The position numbers and the translations under genes were made by a program. A model generated the notes under the pieces. It made no database searches, was not told where the DNA came from, and was given only the letters and a program-made list of their open reading frames with translations. Positions 24,344 to 31,625 of a stretch of DNA of 55,037 nucleotides are shown one piece after another (position 1 is the stretch's first letter; each line of letters opens with the position of its first letter). This DNA is from a virus. The stretch is taken from positions 1 to 55,037 of the IMG/VR virus record IMGVR_UViG_3300032223_002281; one strand, given 5' to 3'.

Positions 24344-24508
24344 TTAGACACGGACAATTCGGACATTTTCTGTGTGATTTACCTCACATCCCTCATGGTA
24401 TAGGGCAGGTGCTAGGACTACCTGTCCGCAAGGGCAGAGGTTCATCAAACCTCTTGGATAATCGGATACTGTAGCGAATCCTCTCGCTCTTTCATGTAGT
24501 GAGTTCAT
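24344..24508 (-). CDS. 54-residue small protein with Cys motif
   Basis: MNSLHERARGFATVSDYPRG then LMNLCPCGQVVLAPALYHEGCEVNH. The CPCG knuckle plus a further Cys and two His could bind zinc. GAAAGGAG lies five bases before the ATG, and a full promoter lies at 24547-24575. The codons for the C-terminal part contain a perfect TGTGA-N6-TCACA palindrome. Confidence 0.65.
   Translation of the reverse strand: MNSLHERARGFATVSDYPRGLMNLCPCGQVVLAPALYHEGCEVNHTENVRIVRV
24373..24388. promoter_or_regulatory. CRP/GlxR-like palindrome
   Basis: TGTGATTTACCTCACA. It matches the TGTGA-N6-TCACA consensus of Crp-family regulators and, with TA at the centre, the GlxR form TGTGA-N2-TA-N2-TCACA. It lies inside the small gene 24344-24508. 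Confidence 0.55.
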
Positions 24509-25723: not shown

Positions 25724-25731
25724 AATGAAAT

Positions 25732-25755
25732 CCTGAACACGATCTAAAACTGTTC
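25732..25755 (+). ncRNA. 3' stem-loop element, copy 1
   Basis: CCT-GAAC-ACGATCTAAAACT-GTTC. Stem of four pairs and a 13-base loop. One of five copies that share CCT before the stem and a loop of exactly 13 bases, with different but still pairing stems. Confidence 0.6.
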
Positions 25756-25800
25756 CCAATTTTTTGGGCCGACGCACTCGGGCGTGTCGTGGTTTACGTA

Positions 25801-25816
25801 TGTGAGATTAATCACA
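25801..25816. promoter_or_regulatory. CRP/GlxR-like palindrome
   Basis: TGTGAGATTAATCACA, identical to the site at 27287-27302. It lies between GGGCCGAC (25767), GGCGTGTCG (25781-25789) and a second GGCGTGTCG (25930-25938), in the intergenic region before the operon that starts at 26002. Confidence 0.6.
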
Positions 25817-25945
25817 CGACTTGAGCGTCTCATTATTTAAGAATACTCGCTAGTAAGTTGATATTTTTAGAGTAATAGGCTAGACTTACATAGTAAGAAA
25901 AAATAAATAAAAAAAGATTTTATCGTTACGGCGTGTCGTTTAGGA

Positions 25946-25969
25946 AATGTCAGCCATATCTGATAGGAT
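25946..25969 (+). promoter_or_regulatory. Rightward promoter of the AATGTCAG class
   Basis: AATGTCAG (25946-25953), ten bases, TAGGAT (25964-25969). The -35 region is poor. It precedes the six-gene operon 26002-27235. Confidence 0.55.
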
Positions 25970-26001
25970 ACTAGTATCAAATAAAGAAAGAGGTAGCCCC
26001 T

Positions 26002-26217
26002 ATGTCAGCAAATGTCTATTCAATAGAAAACCTACTTGTAGGAAAAATGTATTACTCAAATACTTTAACAGGAGAAATTATCTCCGCAGAAAAACACCCT
26101 CATGCAGTTTGGTATCAAGATTGCGAAACTTATCTTGTAGAGGTTGCACCTAATAGTGGAAGCAACACTTGGGGTCGTAGAACTTATCGCACAGTTGCAG
26201 TAAAGACGGAGGAATAA
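26002..26217 (+). CDS. Small hypothetical protein
   Basis: A 71-residue protein (MSANVYSIENLLVGKMYYSN). The segment VWYQDCETYLVEVAPNSGSN is beta-like. AAAGAGG lies upstream of the chosen start. First gene of a six-gene operon. Not recognised. Confidence 0.6.
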   Translation: MSANVYSIENLLVGKMYYSNTLTGEIISAEKHPHAVWYQDCETYLVEVAPNSGSNTWGRRTYRTVAVKTEE

Positions 26218-26219
26218 TA

Positions 26220-26363
26220 ATGGGATATGTAGAAATTTTTAGAATTGACGAAAATGGTGCAGGTTGGGTAGACTTATCTGAAGCAACACCTGATGAAAAA
26301 CTTAATATCGAATTAGGCTTACTCAATGAGGGTGCGCTATTTACAACGAAAGAGGCTAACTAA
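26220..26363 (+). CDS. 47-residue small protein
   Basis: MGYVEIFRIDENGAGWVDLS, ending ELGLLNEGALFTTKEAN. GGAGGAATAATA precedes the ATG, and the stop overlaps the next ATG (TAATG). Acidic; not recognised. Confidence 0.6.
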   Translation: MGYVEIFRIDENGAGWVDLSEATPDEKLNIELGLLNEGALFTTKEAN

Positions 26364-26572
26364 TGGAATATAATTACTCACTAACTATTGCCTATGATGG
26401 TGAACTAGTATCAACAACTAGAAGTGCAGATATGCTTGAAATTGTATCTGCGTGGAATAAATGCGTAGACTTTGGTGATGCTAAAGAATATGCAACCTAC
26501 AATATGTCAGACCCTATTGGCAAAATGTATACTAAGACTTTCTATCGTAACGGAAATGTGAGCGTGAAATAA
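26363..26572 (+). CDS. Small hypothetical protein
   Basis: A 69-residue protein (MEYNYSLTIAYDGELVSTTR, then VSAWNKCVDFGDAKEYATYN). The plan of strand, short helix, strand recalls other small early proteins here. Coupled to both neighbours by TAATG overlaps. Function unknown. Confidence 0.6.
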   Translation: MEYNYSLTIAYDGELVSTTRSADMLEIVSAWNKCVDFGDAKEYATYNMSDPIGKMYTKTFYRNGNVSVK

Positions 26573-26712
26573 TGCCAGTATTTCAATTTACTACTTTCAT
26601 AGATGTAAAAGCAAAAGACTATGACTCAGCAATAGAAGCGTTTGACCATAATCTAAAATATGGAAATATTAACCGAAGCGATGTATATGTCGCAGACATA
26701 GAGGAAAAATAA
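26572..26712 (+). CDS. 46-residue small protein
   Basis: MPVFQFTTFIDVKAKDYDSA, then AFDHNLKYGN and DVYVADIEEK. It resembles the strand-helix-strand pattern of the PcfM/DpnD-like small proteins at 33841 and 35912. Starts in the upstream stop codon. Confidence 0.55.
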   Translation: MPVFQFTTFIDVKAKDYDSAIEAFDHNLKYGNINRSDVYVADIEEK

Positions 26713-26713
26713 T

Positions 26714-26989
26714 ATGGGATCAGTTACAGCACTAGGTATTCAGGACAGCGTTCTTGATTTAGAAACTCAATTAGCATATCACTTGCAGGGTAATCACTAT
26801 CCACCCGTTCCACTTTCTATGGTGCAACCTTGCATCGAAGCAATTGATGCTTACTATGAAGATAACAAAAGTGAAAAACTAATTAAAATGCCTGAAGGCG
26901 TATCATATAAAGGTAAGACACACGCACCCGCTTGGGCTATCATCGAACAACACCACTTGCAATTTTGGCTTCCAGAAGAGGAGTACTAA
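26714..26989 (+). CDS. Hypothetical actinophage-type protein
   Basis: A 91-residue protein: MGSVTALGIQDSVLDLETQL, LQGNHYPPVPLSMVQPCIEAID, then MPEGVSYKGKTHAPAWAIIE and LQFWLPEEEY. The HYPPVP motif is one I associate with small conserved actinophage proteins of unknown role. One base separates it from the upstream stop. Confidence 0.65.
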   Translation: MGSVTALGIQDSVLDLETQLAYHLQGNHYPPVPLSMVQPCIEAIDAYYEDNKSEKLIKMPEGVSYKGKTHAPAWAIIEQHHLQFWLPEEEY

Positions 26990-26992
26990 AAA

Positions 26993-27235
26993 ATGGGTGA
27001 TAGAATAAAAACTATGGATTTTAAAAAGATAGATACACTCAACGTTGATCAGTTAGAGATTGATGATTTTATTTCTGTTAATGGTGAAATTGTGCAAGTA
27101 ACAGGAATTACTCCACTACCTGATGGATATGCAATTATGTATTTAGATTCCTATGAAGAATCAGATTTAATTGAAGTTGATGACTATGCAACGTTTAATT
27201 TATATTATCCATTTGATGAAAACGCAGACGAATAA
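26993..27235 (+). CDS. Small acidic hypothetical protein
   Basis: An 80-residue acidic protein (MGDRIKTMDFKKIDTLNVDQ). EIDDFISVNGEIVQVTGITP looks like a small SH3-like beta barrel, a fold also suggested for the genes at 28633 and 28907. The ATG at 27014 is an alternative start. Last gene of the operon. Confidence 0.55.
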   Translation: MGDRIKTMDFKKIDTLNVDQLEIDDFISVNGEIVQVTGITPLPDGYAIMYLDSYEESDLIEVDDYATFNLYYPFDENADE

Positions 27236-27286
27236 TTATTCATAACCCTGCATAAAAATCGGACCGCCCCGTTCGGGCGTGTCGCA

Positions 27287-27302
27287 TGTGAGATTAATCA
27301 CA
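27287..27302. promoter_or_regulatory. CRP/GlxR-like palindrome
   Basis: TGTGAGATTAATCACA, ten bases upstream of the -35 box of the promoter at 27313, and directly after GGCGTGTCG (27276-27284). At this distance from the -35 box a bound Crp-family protein could activate or block the promoter. Confidence 0.6.
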
Positions 27303-27312
27303 TTTACGTAAG

Positions 27313-27342
27313 TTGACATTTTTGCCCAATGTGTGCTAAGAT
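27313..27342 (+). promoter_or_regulatory. Promoter with consensus -35
   Basis: TTGACA (27313-27318), 18 bases, TAAGAT (27337-27342). The -10 box ends six bases before the ATG at 27349, so the transcript should start at the start codon itself. Confidence 0.8.
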
Positions 27343-27348
27343 TATTTT

Positions 27349-27507
27349 ATGAAACAGAGAAAAACAGTTGAGGAATTACGTAAACTTATGGAGTTACGTA
27401 GGTCTAACGCTGCCTCTGCCGTGCCTTCCAAAAAGACATATACTCGCAAGGGTAGAAAATGTCAGTCGGAAATGCTAAGATATAAATATCAAGAAAAAGG
27501 AGAATAA
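27349..27507 (+). CDS. 52-residue basic protein, leaderless
   Basis: MKQRKTVEELRKLMELRRSN, then KKTYTRKGRKCQSEMLRYKY. Strongly basic and helical at the N-terminus, so nucleic-acid binding is possible. There is no ribosome-binding site and the promoter predicts a leaderless message. A second promoter (AATGTCAG 27458-27465, TAAGAT 27476-27481) lies inside the gene. Confidence 0.65.
   Translation: MKQRKTVEELRKLMELRRSNAASAVPSKKTYTRKGRKCQSEMLRYKYQEKGE
27458..27481 (+). promoter_or_regulatory. Internal promoter of the AATGTCAG class
   Basis: AATGTCAG, ten bases, TAAGAT, located in the coding sequence of the preceding gene and followed by AAAAAGGAG and the ATG at 27512. Confidence 0.5.
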
Positions 27508-27511
27508 CATA

Positions 27512-27688
27512 ATGGGAAATATTGCAGACGAATTCTATGACGAATACTATTCTTTGGTGTGCCCTAGTTGCCACGAAAATGAATGCGATGAATTTATGCC
27601 TATGTGTCACTCTTGCTGGTTAGATGAATTAGCAAATGGATATTCTGATGAAGACGCTAACTTAGAAATGAGCCTTAATCTTGAATAA
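27512..27688 (+). CDS. 58-residue zinc-ribbon-like acidic protein
   Basis: MGNIADEFYDEYYSLVCPSC, then CDEFMPMCHSCWLDELANGY. Two C-x2-C pairs plus flanking Cys/His suggest a zinc knuckle. AAAAAGGAG precedes the start. The end overlaps the TTG start of the Gp88-like gene by eight bases. Confidence 0.65.
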   Translation: MGNIADEFYDEYYSLVCPSCHENECDEFMPMCHSCWLDELANGYSDEDANLEMSLNLE

Positions 27689-28403
27689 ATTAAAACGTTC
27701 GAATGATCGTAAGGTTGCTAACCTAGTTACTAAGAATGGTAAGCAGGCTGCAATTGCTAATACCTTTGGTCTCCCCGCAGGTAAAGAATATTCTTGCCCT
27801 GGCGCTACTAGCGTATGCGAATCTGTATGCTATGCAGGTAAATTAGAAAAAATCTTCAAGGGTGTTAAGGTTAACTTATTGCATAACTGGGATTTATTGA
27901 AAGACGCAGACTATGACACTATGGTCTCACTACTTAATGAAATGATAATTGATTTTAAAAAGGATTGTGTTAAAAAAGACGCACCTATGCTATTCCGTAT
28001 CCACTGGGATGGTGATTTCTTTAATGACACTTATGCTTATGCATGGAAACAAGTTATCATGGACCATAGTGAGGTTCAATTCTGGGTTTATACACGAGTA
28101 AAGTCTGCAGCGCTTATGCTAAAAGATATGCCTAACTTATCTCTTTATTTCAGTACTGATAGTGAGAATGTAAAAATTGGTGTTGACCTTAAAATTAATT
28201 CTGGTGTACGCCTTGCATACCTTGCTAAGAATTTTGCTATTGGTCAAGCAGACATGAAAGAAATGATTGGTAAGCCTGGTGCTAAATGTCCTGAAAATAA
28301 AAAAGCAATTCCATTAATTAGCAATGCAGGTTCCGCTTGCGTTTCTTGCGGATTGTGTGTATACTCTAAAGCAGACATAGTTTTTTCTGCAACTAAGAAA
28401 TGA
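27681..28403 (+). CDS. Gp88-family protein
   Basis: A 240-residue protein starting at TTG 27681. NLVTKNGKQAAIANTFGLPA, then C39-x6-C46-x3-C50 in CPGATSVCESVCYAG, LLHNWDLL, FRIHWDGDFFNDTYAYAW and a C-terminal C-x2-CGLC are the hallmarks of the Gene product 88 family common in actinophages. The two Cys clusters suggest an iron-sulfur or zinc site; the first cluster and the FRIHWDGDFF strand also recall radical-SAM-like folds (inference). Biochemical role not known to me. Confidence 0.85.
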   Translation: MNKLKRSNDRKVANLVTKNGKQAAIANTFGLPAGKEYSCPGATSVCESVCYAGKLEKIFKGVKVNLLHNWDLLKDADYDTMVSLLNEMIIDFKKDCVKKDAPMLFRIHWDGDFFNDTYAYAWKQVIMDHSEVQFWVYTRVKSAALMLKDMPNLSLYFSTDSENVKIGVDLKINSGVRLAYLAKNFAIGQADMKEMIGKPGAKCPENKKAIPLISNAGSACVSCGLCVYSKADIVFSATKK

Positions 28404-28409
28404 GTTAAC

Positions 28410-28463
28410 ATGCGTTGGTTGTTAATTGTATTTATTTTATTTTACTTTTTTATTATTCAATAA
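28410..28463 (+). CDS. Possible 17-residue membrane peptide
   Basis: MRWLLIVFILFYFFIIQ begins six bases after the Gp88 stop: almost entirely hydrophobic, a single potential membrane span. No strong ribosome-binding site. It could be a real phage micro-peptide or chance in AT-rich DNA. Confidence 0.3.
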   Translation: MRWLLIVFILFYFFIIQ

Positions 28464-28532
28464 CTTGACAATCCCCCGAAAGGTGGTCGGCCCAAATTTT
28501 TGATCTTGTCAAGTTACGACACGCATTTAAGA

Positions 28533-28548
28533 TGTGATGTTTCTCACA
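28533..28548. promoter_or_regulatory. CRP/GlxR-like palindrome
   Basis: TGTGATGTTTCTCACA, 28 bases upstream of a TTGACA box (28577-28582) that probably drives the gene at 28633. GGTCGGCCC and TTACGACACG lie just before it, so the intergenic module appears here in part-inverted order. Confidence 0.6.
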
Positions 28549-28632
28549 CCCGAAAATGGCATTTTAATTGGTATTTTTGACATTTTTAGTGTAAAATTAA
28601 ACTATAACCCAAACAGAAAGGCAAGACACCCA

Positions 28633-28803
28633 ATGACAATCTCAGGATATACTTACCAAATTGGTGATTTATTTACAACAAGCAAAACAGGCATTACAGG
28701 TCGTATCGCAGGTTTTTCACCAATCAGTAACAAGGTTACCAGAGTTTCACTAGTCTTGGCAAATGGCTCACGCCGTTTGGCTATGGTTAAGACCTCAAAG
28801 TAA
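28633..28803 (+). CDS. 56-residue small beta protein, tandem paralogue 1
   Basis: MTISGYTYQIGDLFTTSKTG, then ITGRIAGFSPISNKVTRVSL. Homologous to the next gene: YxxGDLFTTxKxxxTGxI is shared. It is probably a five-stranded SH3-like barrel. AGAAAGG lies upstream. Together they look like a recent tandem duplication with separate promoters. Confidence 0.65.
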   Translation: MTISGYTYQIGDLFTTSKTGITGRIAGFSPISNKVTRVSLVLANGSRRLAMVKTSK

Positions 28804-28834
28804 TCTCAAAATGTGAGAAATGTCAGAAATGGAT

Positions 28835-28864
28835 TTGACATTTTAATCTGCAAAATGTTATACT
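28835..28864 (+). promoter_or_regulatory. Promoter with consensus -35
   Basis: TTGACA (28835-28840), 18 bases, TATACT (28859-28864). It lies between the two tandem paralogues and drives the second. Confidence 0.75.
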
Positions 28865-28906
28865 AATACAGTAAGCAAAACCCCTAACAGAAAAGGAAAT
28901 AAACAA

Positions 28907-29074
28907 ATGGCAGTAAATACAGCAACTTACAAGGTTGGCGATTTATTCACAACTCAGAAGTCAAAGGTAACAGGAACAATTCTTGAAATCACACCTAACA
29001 AAGACGGACAATCAGTTCGTGTTAAGTTAGATGTAAATGGAACACCTCGTTACACAACTTGGACAGCGAAGTAA
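28907..29074 (+). CDS. 55-residue small beta protein, tandem paralogue 2
   Basis: MAVNTATYKVGDLFTTQKSK, then VTGTILEITPNKDGQSVRVK. Same plan as its upstream neighbour. AAAAGGAAA precedes the ATG. A conserved 3' stem-loop follows 19 bases after the stop. Confidence 0.65.
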   Translation: MAVNTATYKVGDLFTTQKSKVTGTILEITPNKDGQSVRVKLDVNGTPRYTTWTAK

Positions 29075-29092
29075 TTTCCACCTCCAAAAAAA

Positions 29093-29117
29093 TCCTGAGC
29101 AAGATGTAAAACTGCTC
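29093..29117 (+). ncRNA. 3' stem-loop element, copy 2
   Basis: TCCT-GAGC-AAGATGTAAAACT-GCTC: four-pair stem and the constant 13-base loop, between the small beta protein gene and the next gene. Confidence 0.6.
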
Positions 29118-29156
29118 AACTCAACCCCCAACTAACAGAAAAGGAAACAGACCCAA

Positions 29157-29579
29157 ATGGCACAACGCAAAGCAATCTCAGTAAAGATACCAACACAGCG
29201 AGTTATTGACGCACTCACAAAATCACTAGAAAAGTTAGAACTTGACTACGCATCTCAAGCAGAAAACGAAGCAAAGTTTAACAAAGCAAACGAAGCGTGG
29301 AAAAAAGAAATCTCTAACTATGCAATCGCAAACATTTCTAAAGCAGAGAACCTTCGCACTAACTATCGTTCTTGGAACAATCAGTTAAACATTGACTTCG
29401 ACATCACAGTTTCAGAATTGGATATGCCAAAGCAACCTGAGCGTGATTTCGTAACAATGCACCAGCATACATACAATGAGCAGAAAGAGGAAATCTCTAA
29501 TGCTATTCGTATCCTAAAGATGACAGATGAGGAAGTAGTTAGCACTTCTACTTACAATGCTGTTGCTCGTTACCTATAA
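29157..29579 (+). CDS. Hypothetical helical actinophage-type protein
   Basis: A 140-residue, largely helical protein. The N-terminus (MAQRKAISVKIPTQRVIDAL) precedes a long coiled stretch rich in Ala, Lys and Glu (LEKLELDYASQAENEAKFNK). AAAAGGAAA lies upstream. Not recognised beyond similarity in style to small conserved actinophage proteins. Confidence 0.65.
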   Translation: MAQRKAISVKIPTQRVIDALTKSLEKLELDYASQAENEAKFNKANEAWKKEISNYAIANISKAENLRTNYRSWNNQLNIDFDITVSELDMPKQPERDFVTMHQHTYNEQKEEISNAIRILKMTDEEVVSTSTYNAVARYL

Positions 29580-29605
29580 CTAAATAACGAAACAGGGGCA
29601 GTTTA

Positions 29606-29706
29606 GAGAGTGTTCTCGCCCAATGTCGTAAGTAAGAACTCTCATTATTCGCCAGGCTGATTAGGGCGATTATAGAAATACTATAGAGCAAGGGTACTGC
29701 AGCCCT
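29606..29706 (+). ncRNA. Candidate structured RNA with pseudoknot potential
   Basis: GAGAGTGTTCT (29606-29616) can pair with AGAACTCTC (29635-29643) with one bulge. CGCCC in its loop (29617-29621) can pair with GGGCG downstream (29664-29668), which makes an H-type pseudoknot. TATAG-AAATA-CTATA and AGGG-N8-CCCT hairpins follow. No reading frame is apparent in this 240-base gap. Folding was judged by eye only. Confidence 0.4.
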
Positions 29707-29720
29707 AAAGAAGCAGACAT

Positions 29721-29744
29721 CCTGAGCACGATCCAAAAAGGCTC
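29721..29744 (+). ncRNA. 3' stem-loop element, copy 3
   Basis: CCT-GAGC-ACGATCCAAAAAG-GCTC: same four-pair stem and 13-base loop, located at the end of the candidate structured RNA and 14 bases before the next promoter. Confidence 0.6.
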
Positions 29745-29758
29745 ACCCCACGGGGTTC

Positions 29759-29788
29759 TTGACAAATGTCAGTGGCCACGAGTACAAT
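29759..29788 (+). promoter_or_regulatory. Promoter combining TTGACA and AATGTCAG
   Basis: TTGACA (29759-29764), then AATGTCAG (29765-29772), ten bases, TACAAT (29783-29788); total spacer 18. The clearest example of the AATGTCAG class placed between normal -35 and -10 boxes. Confidence 0.8.
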
Positions 29789-29820
29789 TAATATAAACAA
29801 ACTAACAGAAAGAGGCCCCC

Positions 29821-30231
29821 ATGGACCAAACAATAGTAAATGCAACAGAAGATTTTCTTAAGTCTCAAATCAGTGCACTGCAGCAGTCAATTACATCTAA
29901 GGATGAATTCATTCAGCGGATAAACCAACGTTCATATGCAGATTCCGCAAACCTTAACCGTATCGTTGAAGACATGCAACAGTGGACCTTGGAATCACTT
30001 AGCAATGAATCAATTACAACGTCGCAGGCAGAAGAAATTGCAGCAATCTGCGGATTTGAATTAACAAAAGAAGTTGAAGTTGAAGTTACCGTAACTTATA
30101 ACTTGACACTGCAGGTGCCTCATGATGAGGACGCAGAAGATATTGTTAACGATATTGATTTTGATTCTGTATCTTATAATTCTGACTACGTAACTTGGCT
30201 AAGTTCAAATGTAGACCGTATCGATTTTTAG
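29821..30231 (+). CDS. Hypothetical protein with coiled N-terminus and PcfM-like C-terminus
   Basis: A 136-residue protein. The first 70 residues are helical (FLKSQISALQQSITSKDEFI). The C-terminal part (EVEVEVTVTYNLTLQVPHDE, DAEDIVNDIDF) has the strand-helix-strand layout of the small DpnD/PcfM-like proteins at 33841 and 35912. AGAAAGAGG lies before the start. Confidence 0.6.
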   Translation: MDQTIVNATEDFLKSQISALQQSITSKDEFIQRINQRSYADSANLNRIVEDMQQWTLESLSNESITTSQAEEIAAICGFELTKEVEVEVTVTYNLTLQVPHDEDAEDIVNDIDFDSVSYNSDYVTWLSSNVDRIDF

Positions 30232-30252
30232 TAGGGGGCTACTAAATAAATT

Positions 30253-30278
30253 CCTGGGCCATGAATAAAAACTGGCCC
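30253..30278 (+). ncRNA. 3' stem-loop element, copy 4
   Basis: CCT-GGGCC-ATGAATAAAAACT-GGCCC: a five-pair GC stem with the same 13-base loop, 21 bases after a stop codon, followed by TTTT. The stem differs from the other copies at both strands, so pairing is kept. Confidence 0.65.
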
Positions 30279-30311
30279 TTTTAAAATCCCCAAAATTTTG
30301 GGTCGGCCCCA

Positions 30312-30327
30312 TGTGATCAATATCACA
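30312..30327. promoter_or_regulatory. CRP/GlxR-like palindrome
   Basis: TGTGATCAATATCACA, followed directly by a second half-site TGTGATTTACGACAC. GGGTCGGCCCC lies just upstream. About 58 bases before the -35 box at 30386. Confidence 0.6.
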
Positions 30328-30385
30328 ATGTGATTTACGACACTATTAAGAAATGTCCGATTTATCCCATGTTTACGTAGCCTAT

Positions 30386-30414
30386 TTGACATTGTCAGTG
30401 CGTGGGTGTATGAT
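30386..30414 (+). promoter_or_regulatory. Promoter of the DUF932 gene
   Basis: TTGACA (30386-30391), 17 bases containing TTGTCAG, then TATGAT (30409-30414). TTGTCAG is followed by exactly ten bases before the -10 box, as in the AATGTCAG class. Confidence 0.75.
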
Positions 30415-30445
30415 TATATTAACAACAACAGAAAGAAGGAAACTC

Positions 30446-31468
30446 ATGGCACATGACCTCGAAACTCAAAATGGAAAAGCATCTTTTGCATCTTTCCGTG
30501 AGCCTGCATGGCATGGATTGGGTACTGTCTTTACAGAAGAAAAAACAACTACAGAAATGTTGGAATCAGCAAATCTTAATGGTTGGAATGTTCGTCTGGA
30601 AGATTTAGAGACCCCATCTCATCTAACAAGCGACAAGGCTTATCAGTACGTTTTGCGTACTAACCCTACAGATAATACCCAAACAGATATTTTGGGAATC
30701 GTTGGTGAACGCTATCACCCATTGCAAAATGAAGATTTATTTTCATTTGGTGATAACATTCTCGATGGTGGTGGACGTTGGGAAACTGCGGGTTCAATCA
30801 AGGGTGGACGTGTAGTATTTGGCTCCCTTGCTCTTGAACGTGAAACAGTTCTTGACCCATCAGGTGTTGCAGATAAGGTTAAAACTTATCTTCTCATCAA
30901 TACATCACACGATGGCTCTATTGCAATTCAGGCATCAATCACACCTGTGCGTGTTGTCTGCGCTAATACTCTTAATCTTGCTCTTGGTGGCGTAGGTCGC
31001 AAGAAGAATAAGAATATCAAGCAATCATTCAAAATTCGTCACACACAAACAGCAAATGGCAAAGTGCAAATTGCTCGTGAGACTCTTGGTCTTGCTAATG
31101 CTTACATGGACGAATTCGACGTTATGGCTAAAGCACTTTTTGAAAAAGAAGTTAATGCTAAGCAATTTAACGACATCATTCTTGCAGCGTATCCAAAGCC
31201 TGAAAAGGATTCTAAGGGTGCAATCAAGAAATGGGAAAACAAAGTTGATATTATTAACGACATCTACACAGGTGAATTTAATGGTATGATTGCAGGTAAC
31301 GCTTGGGGTGCATTTAACGCACTTACCGAACGTCTTGATTGGTATCGTTCTGCTCGTGGTGGCAACAATGAATCAATGCTTGCTTCTGCATCTGGTTTTG
31401 ACCCTGCAATCAATGCAGAAAAAAATCGTTTGCTAAAAGTTGTACAAAATGTAATGCAACTCGCATAA
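30446..31468 (+). CDS. DUF932 / phage-plasmid-like protein
   Basis: A 340-residue protein starting at ATG 30446 behind AGAAAGAAGGA; a longer upstream frame overlaps the promoter and is rejected. PAWHGLGT near the N-terminus, VLRTNP, ILGIVGERYHPLQNEDLFSF and RVVCANTLNLAL are the typical landmarks of the DUF932 (TIGR03299) family, widespread on phages and plasmids. Function is unproven; a role in DNA metabolism is often assumed. It is the largest gene of the early region. Confidence 0.85.
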   Translation: MAHDLETQNGKASFASFREPAWHGLGTVFTEEKTTTEMLESANLNGWNVRLEDLETPSHLTSDKAYQYVLRTNPTDNTQTDILGIVGERYHPLQNEDLFSFGDNILDGGGRWETAGSIKGGRVVFGSLALERETVLDPSGVADKVKTYLLINTSHDGSIAIQASITPVRVVCANTLNLALGGVGRKKNKNIKQSFKIRHTQTANGKVQIARETLGLANAYMDEFDVMAKALFEKEVNAKQFNDIILAAYPKPEKDSKGAIKKWENKVDIINDIYTGEFNGMIAGNAWGAFNALTERLDWYRSARGGNNESMLASASGFDPAINAEKNRLLKVVQNVMQLA

Positions 31469-31476
31469 CAAAAATT

Positions 31477-31500
31477 CCTGAGCATGAATTAAAACTGCTC
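31477..31500 (+). ncRNA. 3' stem-loop element, copy 5
   Basis: CCT-GAGC-ATGAATTAAAACT-GCTC, nine bases after the DUF932 stop and six bases before tRNA-Asp. Same 13-base loop. Confidence 0.6.
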
Positions 31501-31505
31501 TTCAT

Positions 31506-31579
31506 GGTCCGTTAGAATAGTTGGTTAGTTCGCTACCCTGTCACGGTAGAGGTCACGGGTTCAAGTCCCGTACGGATCG
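31506..31579 (+). tRNA. tRNA-Asp (GTC)
   Basis: Cloverleaf by eye: acceptor GGTCCGT/ACGGATC (one G-T), D-stem GAAT/GTTC, anticodon stem CTACC/GGTAG with loop CTGTCAC, T-stem ACGGG/CCCGT with TTCAAGT. Discriminator G; CCA not encoded. Confidence 0.9.
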
Positions 31580-31625
31580 CAATAAATAAATATGCAAGCC
31601 AGTGCATAAAAATGCGGGGCGGTCC

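Follow-up and report, generated by a model that had tools for sequence, protein, structure and literature searches.

H-type pseudoknots with an A-rich third loop are known from the preQ1-I riboswitch and from luteovirus frameshifting. For the stabilization of bacterial and phage mRNAs, 3' hairpins such as REP elements and T7 RNase III sites are used. In type III toxin-antitoxin systems, ToxI is arranged as tandem repeats before the toxin gene. Here, a pseudoknotted RNA element of about 28 nucleotides (nt) was analyzed in a virus sequence of 55,037 nt (IMG/VR record IMGVR_UViG_3300032223_002281, positions 1 to 55,037; hereafter, the window). The source record is a 55-kb virus with a G+C content of 34%, which encodes GP88, DUF932, and tail-fiber-like proteins. 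Five copies of the element, all on the plus strand, were located between 25.7 and 31.5 kb of the window, and sequence comparison indicates that each copy is an H-type RNA pseudoknot.

The element shares its topology (S1-L1-S2-L2-S1'-L3-S2', where S is a stem and L is a loop) and its A-rich L3 with the preQ1-I and luteovirus pseudoknots. However, its L1 is CCU, its L2 is nG, and its S1 has only 2 to 4 base pairs (bp); furthermore, it sits after genes, whereas theirs lie in a 5' leader or coding sequence. No match to the preQ1-I riboswitch was obtained in Rfam, and the element follows stop codons. Like the REP elements and T7 RNase III sites, it would remain as a structure at the 3' terminus once a cistron has been processed, and its proposed job has analogues among the known 3'-end stabilizers. 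It differs from these sites in being a pseudoknot with conserved unpaired bases, in being common to phages of many phyla, and in its association with several cutters. Flaviviral exoribonuclease-resistant RNAs (xrRNAs) are described as stopping the 5'-to-3' enzyme Xrn1 (PMC5760640) and as ring-like (PMC7603331). The likeness is that of a compact pseudoknotted RNA blocking an exonuclease, which is proposed for the present element, but its position implies a block from the 3' side. STAXI (RF01728) is a pseudoknot repeated at least twice near genes for DNA-handling proteins (PMC2864571); the copies described here are mostly single and follow genes, and no RF01728 match was obtained at any copy tested. 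ToxI is a small bacterial pseudoknot RNA that is mimicked by a phage (PMC3475682). By contrast, the sole triple array seen here, which was also the only locus read in detail for a neighboring toxin gene (L253, positions 199 to 310, three copies in tandem at a spacing of about 43 nt), precedes a primase/helicase-like open reading frame (ORF) of 563 amino acids. Hammerhead ribozymes flank genes in prophages, according to a 2011 survey that describes one arrangement of this kind as having no known purpose (PMC3088659). Theta ribozymes, which resemble the hepatitis delta virus (HDV) ribozyme, lie beside phage tRNAs and were linked to tRNA 3' processing in a 2024 paper (PMC10879173). Such ribozymes cut, whereas the element is a pseudoknot 5' of their cleavage site; term searches of the text of these two papers returned no mention of such a pseudoknot.

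In Rfam 15, no family reached its gathering score for the element, and the copies themselves gave no match at E ≤ 10. No paper describing the motif was found in the open-access literature, although an earlier description elsewhere is possible; papers matching the element's sequence strings dealt with unrelated subjects, as judged by titles and abstracts. In a megablast comparison of the window DNA with named phages, no match was obtained. Having fallen outside the described families in every completed comparison, the element belongs only to the general pseudoknot class and probably represents a new RNA family.

The earlier note on this sequence had described five stem-loops with a free, constant 13-base loop. 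All five copies were confirmed on the plus strand at the sites given there. However, the loop bases form a second covarying helix, and a plain hairpin with a free 13-nt loop is ruled out by the covariation of S1. The element reads NNN-CCT-NNNNA-nG-N'N'N'-(n)AAAC-TN'N'N'N', in the order S1 (2 to 4 bp), CCU, S2 (5 bp, closed by A-U), nG, S1', (n)AAAC, and S2', with the 2 to 4 bases directly 5' of the constant CCT pairing with the bases after nG inside the supposed loop. The pairing in the proposed stems (GAAC/GTTC, GAGC/GCTC, and GGGCC/GGCCC) held, but the stems are better read as 5 bp of the form NNNNA/TNNNN with 11 bases between the strands. Nor is the stem uniform, as the copy at 30253 has 6 bp and the copy at 29721 has 4 bp plus an A.G mismatch. 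The copies and the two genes next to the last of them are as follows:

25728 to 25755, plus strand: pseudoknot copy 1, S1 AT/AT, L1 CCT, S2 GAACA/TGTTC, L2 CG, L3 ending in AAAAC (E = 3.3e-6)
29090 to 29117, plus strand: pseudoknot copy 2, S1 AT/AT, S2 GAGCA/TGCTC (E = 4e-8)
29717 to 29744, plus strand: pseudoknot copy 3, a variant with an A.G closing mismatch, CCTGAGCACGATCCAAAAAGGCTC (E = 0.049)
30249 to 30278, plus strand: pseudoknot copy 4, S1 ATT/AAT, S2 of 6 bp, GGGCCA/TGGCCC (E = 0.0019)
31473 to 31500, plus strand: pseudoknot copy 5, S1 AATT/AATT (4 bp), S2 GAGCA/TGCTC (E = 1e-7)
30446 to 31468, plus strand: DUF932 gene (PF06067, phrog_1221), upstream of copy 5 and the bait for relatives
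31506 to 31580, plus strand: tRNA-Asp (gtc), in an arrangement conserved in relatives

The exact pattern core occurred three times in the window and in none of 100 shuffles. When the window was searched with a covariance model built from sequences outside its phage group, the five copies were the top five matches, and the next best match had an E value of 0.8.

The DUF932 protein search retrieved more than 400 relatives in IMG/VR, and 80 loci were kept as the window's family. These loci hold about 300 copies, and the typical loop was found only on the gene strand. Family copies were picked on CCT, the S2 stem, nG, and AAAC, and S1 was not a criterion; at least two Watson-Crick S1 pairs were present in all 173 distinct family copies, compared with 31 expected from partner shuffling (maximum of 43 in 500 shuffles), and the S1 register stood out from all others tried. 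The S1 pairings in these copies vary, including GGC/GCC, CGA/TCG, ATT/AAT, AAA/TTT, and ACT/AGT. An alignment of 95 sequences was made from other phages and bacterial genomes, with none from the 80 loci, and its covariance model covers S2 and the sequence. Two-sided changes were found at 3/3 pairs of S1 (UA/AU/CG/GC) and 3/5 pairs of S2, the covariation score was 0.524 versus 0.185 after shuffling (0/500), and 95.9% of the cells were paired, versus about 29 to 47% in slid controls. The two helices are interleaved and both are supported by covariation, as in the H-type class. The previous view that covarying stems reveal a selected RNA structure is thus strongly supported well beyond five copies, and further covarying copies were found in relatives and other phages. 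A DNA-level palindrome or protein operator was rejected, because the loop portion lacks symmetry and the copies keep to a single strand, that of the genes.

Pattern scans were performed on bacterial genomes and, with another stem, on viral contigs; figures from both scans, here and below, apply among the matches listed. Most matches carry S1. In the bacterial-genome set, 17/30 matches lacking S1 fell inside long ORFs versus 7/91 matches with S1. As S1-bearing matches rarely fall in long ORFs, S1 separates real from chance copies, and the genome-scan matches lacking it, which are mostly coding, were treated as chance. Carriers include phages and prophages of Staphylococcus, Lactobacillus, Mycobacterium, Corynebacterium, Arthrobacter, and cyanobacteria, as well as a microvirus. 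Named examples are Staphylococcus phages B166, phiETA, and 80, Mycobacterium phage Labelle, Microbacterium phage Count, Corynebacterium phages phi673 and phi674, Arthrobacter phage Molivia, Nostoc phage NMeng1, and deep-sea phage D6E. In Lactobacillaceae, 12/151 genomes contain the element, with one to three copies each. Such an element, covarying in both helices and found across many bacterial phyla in tailed phages as well as in one or more microviruses, suggests a need that phages have in common. One copy makes up most of a single CRISPR (clustered regularly interspaced short palindromic repeats) spacer in Saprospira grandis DSM 2844 (L138, 3444 to 3421, minus strand); this locus was rejected as a tandem family, the repeats being the CRISPR array itself. 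Another copy (L164, 3999) is flanked by feoB and a porin-like gene and does not seem to be part of a prophage, and the element may also serve host genes.

The position of the element relative to genes was analyzed in 214 copies outside the window's family. A stop codon was found within 25 nt upstream of 101 of them, versus 4% of random positions; the typical distance past the stop codon was 4 to 20 nt, and the spacing to this upstream codon was the tightest. In the window, copy 5 begins 4 nt past the stop of the DUF932 gene, copy 2 begins 17 nt past that of ORF 28907 to 29074, copy 4 begins about 18 nt past that of ORF 29821 to 30231, and copy 1 is a few nt 3' of the stop of a short ORF only. 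Copy 3 lies at the end of a conserved noncoding stretch, about 140 nt past the stop of the nearest long ORF, and its variant form is also present in relatives. The claim that the copies follow gene ends is therefore valid for four of them and not for the one at 29721. Many copies start 4 to 9 nt past a stop codon, where a knot could act in translation by keeping terminating ribosomes out of the next gene, tRNA, or ribozyme. However, many others are 50 to several hundred nt from the stop of any long ORF, including copies within noncoding stretches (29721 in the window; 6937 to 7101 in L015), and we regard such a role as extremely improbable.

Downstream of the element, sites at which RNA 3' ends could be made were enriched. 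A tRNA 5' end lies 3 to 9 nt downstream of 43/190 family copies and 3 to 13 nt downstream of 12/145 unrelated viral copies (random, 0.12%), and a tRNA was found within 30 nt upstream of only 1/426 copies. The copy before tRNA-Asp at the DUF932 junction is conserved in 80/80 loci; the strict pattern is present in 78 of them, and the remaining two carry the "AAAAGGCTC" variant, as in copy 3 of the window. Since copy 5 ends 5 nt before tRNA-Asp, an RNase P cut at the 5' end of this tRNA would leave an mRNA 3' end 5 nt past the element. A type III hammerhead descriptor was found downstream of 12 copies, with the cleavage site mostly 6 to 8 nt past the element, and upstream of none. Six of these cases came from a scan requiring a nearby hammerhead core, and the other six came from loci retrieved with the element as the only criterion; the full pseudoknot and the full hammerhead descriptor were required for the count. 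In the bacterial-genome set, five hammerhead neighbors were seen versus 0.008 expected by chance from the density of other hammerheads. In L096, the order is gene, stop, pseudoknot, hammerhead, gene, pseudoknot, hammerhead, gene, and one of the hammerheads reaches Rfam's cutoff. Match counts from two joint patterns of element and hammerhead core were discarded, as chance matches were expected to be common. L143 contains two copies with an HDV-like ribozyme descriptor starting 1 nt past the element (control, 1 in 3,000 points); DUF805b (RF02914), also in this locus, is a different hairpin-plus-tail and distinct from the element. Of the TATAAT boxes, 21 lay within 30 nt past the element and 9 within the following 120 nt, compared with one in the 60 nt before it, and a TTGACA promoter lies at 29759, downstream of copy 3. 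A transcript from such a downstream TATAAT promoter would not contain the element. In general, the element is rarely downstream of tRNAs, ribozymes, or -10 boxes.

Several unrelated routes of making a 3' end thus share the same place a few nt past the element, which is most simply explained if the element belongs to the 3' end of the upstream RNA. The most favorable interpretation, with a probability of about 0.6, is that it serves as a marker and probable protector of RNA 3' ends, the knot blocking 3'-to-5' exonucleases. Phages would place the pseudoknot at the 3' ends of mRNAs and noncoding RNAs, and the RNA would be cut a few nt downstream. The cut would be made by RNase P where a tRNA follows, by the ribozyme itself where a hammerhead or HDV-like sequence follows, or else by a host endonuclease acting on the unstructured tail; alternatively, the transcript would stop before the next promoter. 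The resulting 3' end would consist of the pseudoknot and a short single-stranded tail, and the compact knot would resist 3'-to-5' exonucleases and stabilize the upstream RNA. The sequences themselves demonstrate selection at the RNA level, the pseudoknot, its strand and position, and its association with cleavage elements, whereas both the formation of 3' ends at the element in vivo and the blocking of exonucleases by the knot are what we infer from these data. Among the roles suggested by the earlier note, that of a 3'-end or processing element fits best, given the nearby RNase P, hammerhead, and HDV-like sites and -10 boxes, whereas a plain terminator does not fit.

Several observations weigh against 3'-end protection. 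First, 194/214 copies outside the window's family have no adjoining tRNA or recognized hammerhead. Second, at least five T's occur in the first 9 nt after 44/194 copies, versus 8 to 15 at control positions, so some copies may also terminate transcription. These T-rich tails, and the copies preceding promoters, would suit a transcription terminator or attenuator with a pseudoknot in place of the usual hairpin. However, most copies have no T run, the window copies show no consistent U run, and the element does not as a rule have the GC-rich stem with an immediate U run of an intrinsic terminator. Moreover, transcription must pass the copies that precede type III hammerheads and those 3 to 9 nt 5' of tRNA genes, where a promoter could not fit (the gap between copy 5 of the window and tRNA-Asp is just 5 nt). 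Termination as the main role is therefore improbable.

Third, the element of several phages and prophages, among them those of Staphylococcus, lies between the minor-head/portal and scaffold/capsid genes, a site that might also suit the protection of downstream RNA. Genes beside the element are often phage head genes, and 5/10 downstream proteins tested were head scaffolding proteins. An element at the 5' end that blocks 5'-to-3' decay by RNase J and shields the downstream gene, like the flaviviral xrRNAs, would fit this recurrent site before highly expressed genes, as well as the porin-like gene in L164. It would also agree with the finding of the element in 0/148 Pseudomonadaceae genomes and, as one weak match, in 5,426 E. 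coli genomes, although these searches were of limited sensitivity. Both groups as a rule lack RNase J. However, with a tRNA, ribozyme, or -10 box next, the element is cut off from or outside the downstream RNA, and its distance from the preceding stop codon is the most tightly constrained, which makes this explanation as doubtful as termination.

Fourth, a bound protein or ligand would explain equally well why CCU, nG, and AAAC are so strictly conserved. The surface that they form might be recognized by a conserved protein of the host or phage, such as an endonuclease, a ribosomal protein, or an RNA chaperone, which would cut or hold the RNA just downstream, with protection being secondary. 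In the sampled set, the unpaired CCU, G, and AAAC positions are invariant, with a bias against G at L2 position 1; the set was selected on CCT, nG, and AAAC, so the invariance there is partly built in. The 9-nt tail after the element is unstructured and G-poor, and no cleavage element can be recognized near some intergenic copies, as expected for such a signal. On the other hand, a downstream tRNA, hammerhead, or HDV-like ribozyme needs no cutting signal, yet the element is present, and because it occurs in phages of many phyla, its partner would need to be almost universal. Processing or binding as the primary role is possible but rather unlikely.

For the element as a protector of 3' ends, a broader proposal can be made, to which we give an even chance: an undescribed and very widespread phage RNA family, in which a pseudoknot of about 28 nt caps RNA 3' ends against 3'-to-5' decay and, with tRNAs and self-cleaving ribozymes, dices polycistronic transcripts into separately stable messages, so that unassigned sequences right after it are candidate new self-cleaving RNAs. 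If true, this would explain what the puzzling intergenic ribozymes of phages are for, with the ribozyme cutting and the pseudoknot protecting the upstream end. The element would also offer a possible marker for new cleaving RNAs and a compact part for stabilizing mRNAs.

Further conserved sequences were observed next to the element. In L134 (5516) and L160 (6404), about 110 nt of conserved, unassigned sequence starts directly after the pseudoknot and is, by analogy, a candidate cleaving RNA. The Rfam DUF2800 RNA (RF02960) starts 1 nt past the element in L131 (2981 to 2824, minus strand) and L110 (5432 to 5592, plus strand), hinting at a cleavage or processing element; S1 is absent from the L110 copy. 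In the window, a second conserved noncoding segment (29648 to 29720) ends exactly at copy 3. It has no Rfam match, and apparently covarying stems were seen in relatives (AAGG[G/C/T]..[C/G/A]CCTAAAG and ATAG/CTAT). In addition, six perfect TGTGA-N6-TCACA palindromes, similar to CRP/GlxR sites, are present in the window at 24373, 25801, 27287, 28533, 30312, and 32497. Several of them lie upstream of TTGACA promoters, which suggests the control of phage promoters by a host factor.

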